The notes below the pieces were generated by a model. It did no database searches and was not told the DNA's origin. It saw nothing but the letters and a program-made list of their open reading frames with translations. DNA of 32,995 nucleotides from NCBI GenBank assembly GCA_015523195.1, contig WAKU01000054.1, forward strand, positions 1 to 32,995, read 5' to 3'. Source of the stretch: Thermococcus sp. GTDB lineage: Archaea > Methanobacteriota_B > Thermococci > Thermococcales > Thermococcaceae. Positions 8,886 through 17,602 of this stretch are shown in pieces; the stretch's first letter is position 1, and the number at the start of each line of letters is the position of its first letter. Position numbers and translations under genes: made by a program.

Positions 8886-9298
8886 TGGCCGTCTTCACGG
8901 AGGAGCTGAGGTTCTCCACGAGGGGTGGGATAGACCTCGTTGACATAACCGGCGAGGTTGAGAGGGTCGTGAGGGATTCTGGGATAAGGAACGGCCATGC
9001 CCTCGTCTTCGTGCCGGGGGCGACTGGAGCGATAGTGACGATAGAACATGAAAGCGGCCTTCTGGAAGATCTCAAAAGAACCTTGAGGGAGTTAGTGCCG
9101 AAGGGAAAGGGCTACCTTCACGACAGGATAGACGACAACGCCCACAGTCACCTTAGGGCCACGCTCCTCGGCGCGAGCGAGTGCTTCCCTGTCGTTGACG
9201 GCCGCTTGGTGACGGGAACATGGCAGCAGGTGTTCTTCGTGGAGCTCGACGTGAGGCCGAGGCACAGGCGCGTTATCGTGCAGGTTGTGGGGGAGTGA
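8885..9298 (+). CDS. YjbQ/UPF0047 family protein (secondary thiamine-phosphate synthase)
   Basis: This 137-residue protein has the family signature HDRIDDNAHSHLRATLLG (about residues 79-96) and GTWQQVFFVELD near the C-terminus. YjbQ proteins form trimers and some show weak thiamine-phosphate synthase activity, which is why the family carries that name; the physiological reaction is unsettled. Linkage to a ThiN regulator through TGATG supports a thiamine role (inference). Start: ATG 8885 with GGGGGTGATG upstream; a GTG at 8882 is possible. Its last 26 bases overlap the 3' end of the convergent ATPase gene. Confidence 0.88.
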   Translation: MAVFTEELRFSTRGGIDLVDITGEVERVVRDSGIRNGHALVFVPGATGAIVTIEHESGLLEDLKRTLRELVPKGKGYLHDRIDDNAHSHLRATLLGASECFPVVDGRLVTGTWQQVFFVELDVRPRHRRVIVQVVGE

Positions 9299-10463
9299 GT
9301 TCGAGGAGGAAGGAGGGCACTTCCTCCTTTTCAAGCACCCTTACGTTTTTCGGGTACTTCCTGTGGGCCTTTCCAGCCTTCACCTCGACCTTGAGGTCTC
9401 CGGCAACTGCATCGACTTCATAGGAGTTCCGATAGTAGTACACCTCTCCAAAACGCCGGTGGAGGTGTTCTTGGACTACCCATTCATATAGTGCGTCCTC
9501 CTTCAGCTCGGTCCCGCTCCACAGGGCGAAGAGCCTCGCTAAGAGGGGGTCGCGGAAGAAGAACTTCTTCTTGCGCTTGTAGAGCACCTGGTTACCCTGC
9601 TTGAGGTAGGCTATCCCGAGGATGTAAAGCTCGGTGAAGAACTCGATGTAGTCCTGAACCACCTTGTAGGAGTAGCCGGAGGTCATGCCCGCTAAGGCTC
9701 TGAAACTCGTCGCCGAGGGGGCGCTCCTTATCAGGGCTGAGAGCGTCTCCTCTGCTATCTCAAGGCTCTTCCCAAAGCGGACGATTTCTCCGATATACGC
9801 CCCGAGAAGGTCCTCCATCGGGAGGCCGTTTATCGAGGCTGGAAATCCCCCGGTAGTTAAGTAAGCATCGAAGAGCTTCAGCACTTTTTCCCTCCGCAGT
9901 TCTGGCCTCTCCAGCCCCATTACCTTCACGTACTCCGGAAATGAGAGCGGCATGACCTCTATAGTTTTTCCGCTCCCCCTTCTGCCCGGGAAGAGCTCAA
10001 TGTCTCTCTTGACCCTCAGGGAGCTTGAACCTGTAACCGTAACCACGTCGTTCTCCAAGAGACCGGCGTCTATGGGTGGTTTGACCCCGCGCCACCAGCC
10101 TTCCAAGGAGGTAACCTCATCAAGGAAGATGTAACCCGTTTTAATCCCTTCTTTTGCCTTAAGCCCCTGGAACTCGCGGAGGGGGTTCAGAAGCTCGCGG
10201 TGGCTCGGCAAGACCTCGACGTTAATGTAGAGAACGGCCTCGGGCGGGTTGTCCTTCAGGAGTTCCTGGATCAGGAGTTTTATCCCCGTGGTTTTTCCCA
10301 CCTGTCTCGGGCCGAGGACGAAGTTGAAGGAGAACGGCTTAAGCGAAAGCCTCTCCAGCCATTTTGGCCGCCAGTGGAGCTTCTGTTCTTTCCAGCGCCT
10401 CACATGGTAGTCCTCTCTCCCCTCCCACCAGGGGTTCATGTAGGTGAGATCACCCAGCCTCAT
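9273..10463 (-). CDS. AAA ATPase with C-terminal nuclease-like domain (DUF4143 type)
   Basis: This 396-residue protein has Walker A GPRQVGKTT (about residues 51-59), Walker B YIFLDEV (about 111-117) and a sensor-like TGSSS, as in the AAA_14 family. A winged-helix-like middle (FRALAGMTSGYSYKVVQDY) and a C-terminal DUF4143-type region follow. The end carries Asp-x-(9)-Glu-Val-Lys (VDAVAGDLKVEVKAGK), the PD-(D/E)XK pattern, so the nuclease core seems intact. These ATPases are frequent in Thermococcales, and their role is unknown. The gene has AGGTG before its ATG and a palindromic TATA region directly upstream. Its 3' end overlaps the YjbQ gene. Confidence 0.85.
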   Translation of the reverse strand: MRLGDLTYMNPWWEGREDYHVRRWKEQKLHWRPKWLERLSLKPFSFNFVLGPRQVGKTTGIKLLIQELLKDNPPEAVLYINVEVLPSHRELLNPLREFQGLKAKEGIKTGYIFLDEVTSLEGWWRGVKPPIDAGLLENDVVTVTGSSSLRVKRDIELFPGRRGSGKTIEVMPLSFPEYVKVMGLERPELRREKVLKLFDAYLTTGGFPASINGLPMEDLLGAYIGEIVRFGKSLEIAEETLSALIRSAPSATSFRALAGMTSGYSYKVVQDYIEFFTELYILGIAYLKQGNQVLYKRKKKFFFRDPLLARLFALWSGTELKEDALYEWVVQEHLHRRFGEVYYYRNSYEVDAVAGDLKVEVKAGKAHRKYPKNVRVLEKEEVPSFLLELTPPQPAR

Positions 10464-10470
10464 AGGAACA

Positions 10471-10527
10471 CCTGAGAAGTTATGGTTCTCAATCCTTTAT
10501 AAAGGTTGAGAAGTGTGAGTTCTCAGG
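10471..10527. promoter_or_regulatory. TATA box inside a double inverted repeat (putative operator of the ATPase gene)
   Basis: The centre is the palindrome CCTTTATAAAGG (10494-10505). It is flanked by TTCTCAA (10486-10492) and TTGAGAA (10506-10512), and further out by CCTGAGAA (10471-10478) and TTCTCAGG (10520-10527). All arms share one symmetry centre near 10499. The TATA sits about 33 bases before the ATPase ATG. A factor bound to the TTCTCA/TGAGAA arms would block TBP, so repression is the natural inference. The plus side has no gene facing outward, so the symmetry is not explained by a divergent promoter. Confidence 0.75.
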
Positions 10528-15168: not shown

Positions 15169-15618
15169 ATGGACGAGGTCAGAACACACACCGCCCTCCA
15201 CGTGGTCAAGGGGGCCGTCGTTAAAGTTCTCGGCGAGGGGGCCAAGTGGACGGCCTCGACCTACGTCAAAGGCAAGAGGGGTGTCTTAACCGTCAAGTTC
15301 GACCGGAAGCCCACTCCCGAGGAGGTTAGGGAAATAGAGCGCCTCGCCAACGAGAAAATCAGGGAAAACGCCCCCGTCAAGGTTTACGAGCTCCCGCGCG
15401 AGGAGGCCGAGAAGTGCTTCGGCGAGGATATGTACGACCTCTTCCCGGTTCCTTCGGAGGTAAAGACCCTCAAAGTGGTCGTCATCGAGGGCTGGAACGT
15501 CAACGCCTGCAATAAGGAGCACACGAGGACGACCGGAGAAATAGGGGCGATAAAAATTAGGAAAGTCCGCTTCAGGAGGAGCAAGGAGCTTTTGGAAATT
15601 AGCTTTGACGTTCTCTAA
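15169..15618 (+). CDS. alaX: Alanyl-tRNA editing protein AlaX, short type
   Basis: This 149-residue free-standing editing domain hydrolyses Ser (or Gly) wrongly attached to tRNA-Ala. The zinc site is complete: HTALH (His7 and His11) and CNKEH (Cys114 and His118), followed by the conserved [12 protein letters not shown]. The length fits the AlaX-S subgroup, which lacks the N-terminal and C-terminal additions of AlaX-M and AlaRS. The mRNA is probably leaderless. The last 20 bases overlap the 3' end of the convergent ATPase gene. Confidence 0.92.
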
Positions 15619-16855
15619 GCAGAAACTTCCAGAGTGGAATTACCTCGACGGTCTTTCCCCCCTCCCTGAGCTTTTTTTCTTCGTCCATCGTGACGAGGGT
15701 GAGTTTATCAACCCCAAGCCTTTTGCCAGCCTTGAGGAGTCCGAGGACTTCCCTCTCGTAGTTTGAGGGCGTTATTTCGTACGTAACCTGCACCAGCTCC
15801 CTAACTTCACCCCCAACTCTAATGACGAAATCCACCTCGCTGTCTCCATCGGAGTAGTAGGAGAGCTCAATCAGAGGATTGCGGTAGCTTTTCTCCCGCA
15901 GGAGCTCCAGAAAAACCAGGTTCTCAATTTTTCTTCCAGCATCTTGGCCCTTAAAGAATAGGCTTGTAAAGGCCGTATCCACAAGGTAGAGCTTTCTCGG
16001 GCTTCTCATTACCCTTTTTGTGGACGTTGAAAAGAGCGGAAGCTCGAAGACGAGGAAAGAGGACTCCATTGCGTGAAGGTAGTTCATAATCGTCTTAACG
16101 TTCGCCTCAACGCCCAGCCCCTTAAGCGCCCTCTGAAGGGAGCGGTAGGTGAAGTAACCCCCGTAGAGCGATAGGACGTAATAGAAAACCTCCCGGAACT
16201 CCCTCACGTCCCTGAAGGCGAAGTGCTCTATTATGTCGCGGTAAAATATCGTCTCGAGTATTGAAATAACCTTCTCGCGCGATTTCGTCAGCCACACTTC
16301 CGGAAAGCCCCCCCACTTTACGTACTCGTCCAGGAGTTTTCTGAGCTTACCCCTCTCCCTGAATGTCATCGGCCTTTCTTTTCCAACGATCTCGCGAAAC
16401 GACAGGGGGAGAATCAGCTTTGAAAGGTGCCTTCCCCTAAGCTTTGAGGGTATCTCCGAGGAGAGAAGGGCAGAGGATGAGCCGGAGACGTAGATGTTGA
16501 AGTCACCAACGTCGTGGAGCCATCTCAGTTTTGTGTCCCACTCGTCCCACTCCTGAACCTCGTCGAGGAAGAGCGTAACCTTTCCCTCCGGAAACTCCCG
16601 CCTGATTTCCTCCGCCAGCTGGCGGGCGGTGAGCTTCCTCAGCTCGGGCTCATCGAAGGGAAGGTAAAGAACGTTTTCACCCTTTTCAATGAGTTCTCTG
16701 GCAGTTCTAAGCATTAGGAATGTCTTCCCGACCCTTCTCGGGCCGACTATGGCCTTTATGTCGCTTCCCCTCGGGAGGTTAATTTCCCTCGGAATCTTTT
16801 CTCCCTTCTCAAGGGCACCGAGGTATTCGAGTGTTATCTCCCTGAGGCCAATCAT
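15599..16855 (-). CDS. AAA ATPase of the DUF4143 type, second copy
   Basis: This 418-residue protein has Walker [10 protein letters not shown] (about residues 37-45) and Walker [11 protein letters not shown]. It has the SGSSS sensor, LPLSFREI and [11 protein letters not shown], all standard for AAA_14/DUF4143 ATPases. The C-terminal nuclease-like domain keeps ENLVFLEL and SEVDFVI, but the usual Glu-x-Lys is replaced by Gln-Val-Thr, a frequent variant in this family that suggests binding rather than cleavage. The ATG at 16855 is chosen because the TATA in the upstream palindrome lies 20-29 bases away, giving a leaderless mRNA. Its cellular role is unknown. Confidence 0.87.
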
Positions 16856-16865
16856 GTTTATTAAT

Positions 16866-16908
16866 AATACACAATTATATATAAGCATTGTGTATTAAAA
16901 ATACACAA
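16866..16908. promoter_or_regulatory. TATA box flanked by AATACACAA inverted repeats (putative operator)
   Basis: AATACACAA (16866-16874) and its exact complement TTGTGTATT (16888-16896) flank the palindromic TATA TTATATATAA (16875-16884). A third copy, AATACACAA, follows at 16900-16908. The TATA is 20-29 bases from the ATPase start at 16855. The layout is that of a repressor site covering the core promoter. Confidence 0.78.
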
Positions 16909-16931: not shown

Positions 16932-17357
16932 CTAAGGAGCGGTCTCGAAGAGAACTGTGAAGTCACTGTCGAAGGTGAAGGCCTTTCTTATCTTCAAGCG
17001 CTCCATCATGGCAAGGGCCAGTGCGTCTATCATGTCCAGACCTTTTTTGTCGGTGTATTTGAAGAATAACTCCCATGCTCTTTCCCAGTCGCCCTCTGTT
17101 TCCCTCTCTATGAAGATGAACTTGCTTGAAGTGTAGAGCCTGTACTGCTCAAGTGCGACGTCCTTGCCGACGTGCTTGCTCACTCCATTGAGGAACTCCA
17201 TTAGTGTGGGTCTCCCGAGGACGAAGCGCGAACCTCTTGAAACGGCCTCCCTGAAAAAGCTCACCGCCCTCTCGTGTTCGGGGTCATCCCTCGCCAGTAA
17301 GGCTATCATCGCACTCGTGTCAAGGTATATCAGCTCTGGCTTCAGCGGCTTCGCCAT
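16932..17357 (-). CDS. vapC: VapC-type PIN-domain toxin
   Basis: This 141-residue PIN RNase carries the acidic metal ligands in the expected order: Asp13 (YLDTSA), Glu54 (TLMEFLNG), Asp108/Asp111 (GLDMIDALALAMM) and Asp130/Asp132 (TFDSDF). It would cleave RNA when released from its antitoxin. It overlaps the antitoxin gene by 16 bases and is translated after it. There are 76 bases between its 3' end and the next gene's start, which contain that gene's operator. The ATG at 17357 has no strong ribosome site, as expected for coupled translation. Confidence 0.88.
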   Translation of the reverse strand: MAKPLKPELIYLDTSAMIALLARDDPEHERAVSFFREAVSRGSRFVLGRPTLMEFLNGVSKHVGKDVALEQYRLYTSSKFIFIERETEGDWERAWELFFKYTDKKGLDMIDALALAMMERLKIRKAFTFDSDFTVLFETAP

Positions 17358-17602
17358 TCGACCACGCCCCAGTCATCGTTGTGGCTGGTTTTCCTGCCCT
17401 TCAGCTCAACAACGCCGAAGGCCTTCCATATCGGGTCGTTTTCAACCTCTTCCTGGATTTTCTTCTCGTTCATCTCGACATATGCCTCCACTGCCTCCCG
17501 CAGAACTTCCTTGAGGCTCTTACCCTCTCTCAGTGATATCAGCCTTAACATGTTGTAAAGATCCTCATCTAATTCGGTTTGTACATGTTTAACAGTTGAC
17601 AT
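17342..17602 (-). CDS. vapB: VapB-type antitoxin (ribbon-helix-helix)
   Basis: This 86-residue protein begins with a strand (VKHVQTELDEDLYNML), a helix, a turn and a second helix (KSLKEVLREAVEAYV), the ribbon-helix-helix dimer pattern. An acidic, flexible toxin-neutralising tail (about residues 50-86) follows. GGTGATTAC precedes the ATG. A TATA-like TCTAAATAC lies about 20-30 bases upstream, flanked by AAATG and CATTT. This fits autorepression by the VapBC complex (inference). It pairs with the overlapping PIN toxin. Confidence 0.82.
   Translation of the reverse strand: MSTVKHVQTELDEDLYNMLRLISLREGKSLKEVLREAVEAYVEMNEKKIQEEVENDPIWKAFGVVELKGRKTSHNDDWGVVEWRSR

Follow-up and report, generated by a model that had tools for sequence, protein, structure and literature searches.

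What does it mean that the gene of an archaeal ATPase begins amid repeated copies of one short motif arranged about its TATA box, and which protein would read them? The question arises at a site in a 32,995-nt stretch of Thermococcus sp. DNA, the whole of which is referred to here as the window. Exact copies of AATACACAA occur three times, at 16866-16874 (+), 16888-16896 (-) and 16900-16908 (+), with TTATATATAA between the first two, and the initial annotation described them as an inverted repeat around a TATA palindrome followed by a third copy. The copies are real and the TATA box does lie between them, but a fourth half-site with one mismatch, missed in that description, is found at 16855-16863, and the four half-sites therefore form two tandem 19-bp palindromes (consensus TGTGTATTnnnAATACACA) at 16855-16873 and 16889-16907, spaced by 34 bp. 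The arrangement registers as a direct repeat of 20 nt with a spacing of 34. In a paired-palindrome scan of the whole window, this site scores highest (31/32) and a site at 10473 is second (29/32), whereas 12 composition-matched random windows reached 26-28.

The upper palindrome, putative operator O1 (16889-16907, the perfect palindrome TGTGTATTAAAAATACACA), is located upstream of the TATA box on the BRE side, and the lower one, putative operator O2 (16855-16873, TGTTTATTAATAATACACA, one mismatch), overlaps both the start codon and the point where transcription is expected to begin; neither is assigned a strand. The TATA box (TTATATATAA, 16875-16884, minus strand) occupies the linker between both. 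With gene starts assigned by rule, the start codon of the ATPase P0001 is at 16855, not 16888, and adjoins the lower palindrome. Thus, as would be expected of an autogenous regulator, symmetric sites cover core elements of the gene's own promoter, with the palindromes flanking the TATA box. Between a LigB gene and P0001 lies a pair (16932-17602, minus strand) made up of a PIN (VapC-like) gene and its small partner, and in several relatives, the ATPase gene directly follows LigB with no PIN pair. That the operators belong to this neighboring pair was considered and rejected, as orthologues elsewhere carry them directly after LigB in its absence.

P0001 (418 aa; 15599-16855, minus strand) has Pfam matches to AAA_14 (2.2e-32; 112.2 bits, cut-off 27) and DUF4143 (2.1e-19; 70.3 bits, cut-off 28.1). 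An AF2 model built from 67 sequences of the window and its relatives (pLDDT 90.5) contains helices at residues 217-230, 237-246 and 253-265 and a strand at 269-272, with pLDDT of about 91-95 in this region. Residues 217-272 are thus predicted to form a winged helix that follows the AAA domain (residues 32-156) and precedes a PD-(D/E)XK-like domain (~306-418). The predicted winged helix-turn-helix (residues 217-275; 16031-16207, minus strand), whose recognition helix would span ~253-265, is rich in clade-specific residues and supplies, as a prediction, the DNA-binding domain expected in the product of an autogenously regulated gene. When residues conserved within but differing between clades are ranked, this stretch is 10th of 360 protein windows (mean difference 0.60), and the best window, which starts at residue 229, overlaps the winged helix. 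In the co-variation test that the initial annotation proposed, and with whole-protein distance controlled for, the winged helix tracks motif distance no better than other segments do. The best fold matches of the model in the PDB, at modest TM-scores, are PABY2304, DnaA, Cdc6/Orc1 and STAND NTPases (e.g., NLR resistosomes); a sequence search of the PDB found no close relative.

The second-ranking site of the window belongs to another AAA_14 ATPase gene, P0002 (396 aa; 9273-10463, minus strand), which has the same upstream layout with its own motif, TGAGAACnnnnnGTTCTCA. Putative operators O1 (10507-10525, TGAGAAGTGTGAGTTCTCA) and O2 (10473-10491, TGAGAAGTTATGGTTCTCA), again without assigned strand, are 34 bp apart and enclose a TATA box at 10496-10503 (minus strand, TTTATAAA). 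Both proteins had been assigned to the DUF4143-type ATPases; this holds for P0001, whereas P0002 matches only AAA_14 in Pfam (78.4 bits, cut-off 27; DUF4143 falls below the reporting threshold), and it is by profile comparison, aligned over residues 43-356 with a probability of 99.9, that its architecture resembles that of P0001. The structure model of P0002 was poor (pLDDT 56, 16 rows) and was left out of the analysis. Its nuclease-like PD-(D/E)XK motif is apparently intact (YEVDAV...VEVKAG), and where P0002 has EVD...EVK, P0001-type proteins have IQVT or IQVS. The suggestion of a leaderless mRNA fits P0001, for which about 25 nt separate the TATA center from the ATG as read from the sequence, but not P0002, whose promoter would allow a leader of about 10 nt. 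Both P0001 (1.4e-96 over residues 29-415) and P0002 (1.5e-29) match the PADLOC profile PDC-S01, and by this match, they would be members of a candidate defence family.

To ask how general this layout is, we collected homologues from the genome of the window and from 60 congeneric ones (136 in all, non-redundant), and scored 132 upstream regions. Of the 25 spacings tested (one scoring scheme), the largest excess falls at 33, 34 or 35 bp in 10/10 DUF4143 paralogue clusters, and each cluster carries its own palindrome sequence, such as TTGGTACnGTATAnnGTACCAA at a spacing of 35 bp, TGTTTTATnnATAAAACA at 34, GGTAAAGTTGAnTTTACC and TTGCCAAnnnnnATTGGCAA at 33, and ACCAGTATnnTGGT at 34 in two or three copies. 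Paired palindromes, defined by a score of at least 24, precede 93 of the 132 ATPase genes and none of 211 control genes, although many single family members score weakly. The controls were drawn as 212 genes from 13 random 20-kb stretches. One of them scored 27 and proved to be itself an ATPase of this kind, a paralogue of P0002 whose motif is TTTGCA...TGCAAA; the other 211, the true controls, scored at most 23. Orthologues of P0001 with 71-74% protein identity retain the same palindromes in differing flanks, and the pairing rule is obeyed in all 25 of the P0002 orthologues read (at least 80% identity). A spacing set by the protein would stay constant while the sequence differs from paralogue to paralogue; this combination of constant spacing and variable sequence suggests a geometry dictated by the binding protein and a specificity that resides in a variable element.

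The survey of upstream inverted repeats proposed in the initial annotation, carried out here on congeneric genomes, thus recovers paired private palindromes in all 10 clusters, and the idea that each such ATPase has a private promoter element of its own extends to the P0002 family and beyond the order. The centering of the repeat on the TATA box, which had been offered as the rule, does not survive. In most cases the linker holds the TATA box. In the ACCAGTAT-type cluster (the one cluster so arranged, 19 genes), however, the array is upstream of the box, and in the GGAAATATTT cluster, the box lies inside a palindrome; what stays invariant is a tandem array of two or three palindromes with a spacing of 33-35 bp. 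In some genes (L046, L118, L210), three operators follow one another at steps of about 33-34 bp. We also observe tandem private palindromes directly before genes of the ATPase_2 family (PF01637; L007, L018, L019, L022 and L032 in the window's own genome), e.g., ATTCACTTAGTGAAT and ATTCAGTTGGTGAAT, with a spacing of 16 or 19 bp, unlike the 33-35 bp described here.

Beyond the genus, a search across prokaryotic genomes gave 80 relatives. Among these, the upstream regions of archaea outside the Thermococcales (41 loci) have a sharp spacing excess at 33 bp (z = 18.0), and those of bacteria (29 loci) a weaker, modest one (z = 6.8 at 33 bp and 4.9 at 34 bp). Examples, in which single taxon labels may be wrong since some records are metagenome bins, include TGGAATAGTATTCCA from Brockarchaeota, GTGGATTGTAAGTCCAC from Thermofilum and CCTTGTTAACAAGG from Thiomargarita, each with a spacing of 34.

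In genome-wide searches, two of the motifs occur only at the slot of their own gene, and two more are found mainly at theirs. Across 61 genomes, the clade A motif (at most 1 mismatch) is confined to one slot, where it is upstream of the ATPase in 10 cases and persists as a remnant after LigB with no gene in 3. The clade B motif is upstream of the ATPase in 15 genomes, and in 7 others, it occupies the same slot beside a gene for an Xer-like recombinase with the ATPase absent. The motif of a third cluster is found mostly at its own gene, apart from six single sites (five genomes, and also G057 close to a truncated DUF4143 match), and the P0002 motif forms, in each genome, one pair that stands out from a background of zero to a few single sites. 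Because the motifs are confined only or mainly to the slots of their own genes, a single global regulator, the explanation that would have undone the private-motif idea, does not account for those searched and was rejected; for P0002, each genome has mainly one locus at which the motif exceeds background.

Taken together, we favor the reading that the palindromes are operators for the downstream ATPase, which would bind them and repress its own gene, and we put the probability of this reading at roughly three in four. A dimer of the ATPase would bind each palindrome through its winged helix, and two dimers, or one higher oligomer, would hold the two palindromes 33-35 bp apart. Since O1 adjoins the BRE side and O2 the start, the bound protein would cover the BRE, the TATA box and the start site, shutting its own promoter by blocking access of TBP/TFB and RNA polymerase. 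The ATP state or a signal from an intruder may release this lock. The outcome would be a self-limited, inducible single-gene system operating with no cross-talk among many paralogues. In the cluster with operators upstream of the TATA box, the arrangement would also suit activation.

An observation that counts against self-repression is that conserved operator-TATA-operator blocks persist in genomes lacking the cognate ORF, so that something other than self-regulation may keep them. At the P0002 slot, which is the 3' end of a UPF0047 gene, such blocks or parts of them are kept in 15 genomes with no close relative of P0002 and in two with one. The operator arms of these solo blocks are about 94% identical between genomes, compared with 36-45% at fourfold sites of the neighboring gene and, unlike the arms, 56-58% at the operator centers; as the solo sites were found by motif, the arms are partly preselected, but no such selection applies to the TATA box or to a pair's second palindrome. 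For clade B, the identity of the unselected operator exceeds that of fourfold sites in most pairs, one locus being falsely low as it is one base out of register. Solo blocks that are better conserved than neighboring fourfold sites occur at L216-L222, L236 and L238-L252. The clade B slot (L050-L060, L216-L222) is the 3' end of an Xer-like tyrosine recombinase gene. These conserved blocks either have a function of their own or reflect an ORF that is repeatedly gained and lost. At two loci (L237:2429-4065 and L203:1362-3797), a solo P0002-type block is close to a complete P0002 gene that has operators of its own, which suggests a gene that has returned near an old slot.

One way to accommodate the solo blocks is that the operator pair serves as both lock and address: the ATPase silences itself, its ORF is gained and lost precisely beside the pair, and solo blocks function as sites of landing or memory for a mobile ATPase-nuclease that regulates itself. 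We regard this fuller scenario as unlikely. The solo blocks also allow for a second binder, and each ATPase gene could be controlled by a separate transcription factor encoded elsewhere, with the ATPase itself not binding. Such an arrangement would call for about a dozen dedicated regulators with one target locus per genome each, all keeping, in archaea and bacteria alike, to a pairing at 33-35 bp, and no recurrent linked regulator gene was seen in the loci examined; we consider it improbable.

An equally improbable view is that the palindromes are primarily an address for homing-like gene movement, in which the ATPase-nuclease ORF enters and leaves its slot and repression is secondary. Empty and occupied alleles do exist at one slot, as for a homing gene, and in clade B, they differ by about the exact ORF (L054 versus L216, 1269 bp versus 7 nt); solo blocks recur at the same slot in many genomes, and the ATPase has a PD-(D/E)XK-like domain. 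There is also a precedent in I-TevI, a homing endonuclease and mobile-gene product that represses its own gene, although this GIY-YIG nuclease of a phage intron has neither an AAA domain nor 34-bp paired palindromes, unlike the P0001-type system. However, insertion does not disrupt the recognition site here: both palindromes remain intact in occupied alleles, in which respect the ATPase genes differ from most homing endonuclease genes. Moreover, the P0002 junction could also be obtained by deletion at a TGAG microhomology, and the catalytic lysine position is not retained in P0001 (IQVTY).

Control at the RNA level, with the palindromes acting as transcript hairpins or terminators, is very improbable: near a convergent gene end, they could form hairpins in solo alleles, but O1 is upstream of the TATA box and outside the gene's transcript, the spacing around the TATA box is conserved, and the operator arms are kept while the centers vary. 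Finally, AT-rich archaeal promoter regions do raise palindrome scores, but chance or composition can be considered already refuted, as upstream regions of same-genome controls and shuffles fall short of the observed scores and the spacing peak is sharp.

Self-repression through paired operators, the reading we favor, has partial parallels among known systems. PDC-S01, an ATPase with PD-(D/E)XK, is listed in PADLOC-DB as a single-gene phage defence candidate and ranked as the fourth most common defence across prokaryotes in a 2026 survey, with experimental validation pending for most PDCs (PMC12988326). P0001 and P0002 match this same protein family, for which operators, autoregulation and a winged helix are unmentioned in that report. 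The best PDB fold match of the P0001 model, PABY2304 of P. abyssi (PDB 2qen), shares the AAA fold, but the overall TM-score is low (0.40/0.47), and PDB searches gave no sequence match to 2qen. SSO1545 of S. solfataricus is an archaeal Walker ATPase of known structure (PMC5760070), and it is not among the P0001-model fold matches listed. Orc1/Cdc6, which is among them, likewise has an AAA domain followed by a DNA-binding winged helix; it binds replication origins, however, whereas the putative sites of P0001-type ATPases are in their own promoters and private to each paralogue, and only the latter have a C-terminal nuclease-like domain. Mycobacterial IniR combines an ATPase with a DNA-binding domain and activates iniBAC (PMC5760070). 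It is similar in being an AAA ATPase that serves as a one-component transcription regulator, but it differs in domain order, activates another operon and is only remotely similar through the ATPase domain.

Autoregulation by palindromic operators is of a known kind. In the open-licence literature searched, no such promoter rule was reported for DUF4143, COG1373, DUF234, SSO1545 or autoregulated archaeal ATPases, and as far as searched, the fixed 33-35 bp pairing with private motifs throughout a large candidate-defence family is new. Few candidate defence genes of prokaryotes are as frequent as those of the PDC-S01 ATPases, whose way of working is little understood. The fixed pairing of private palindromes indicates that each ATPase is probably a sequence-specific DNA-binding protein, and the rule gives a predicted binding site directly from any genome. 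The private motifs suggest how many paralogues can coexist with no cross-talk, and the conserved solo operators, a puzzle in their own right, could point to gene mobility or to a second function so far unsuspected.
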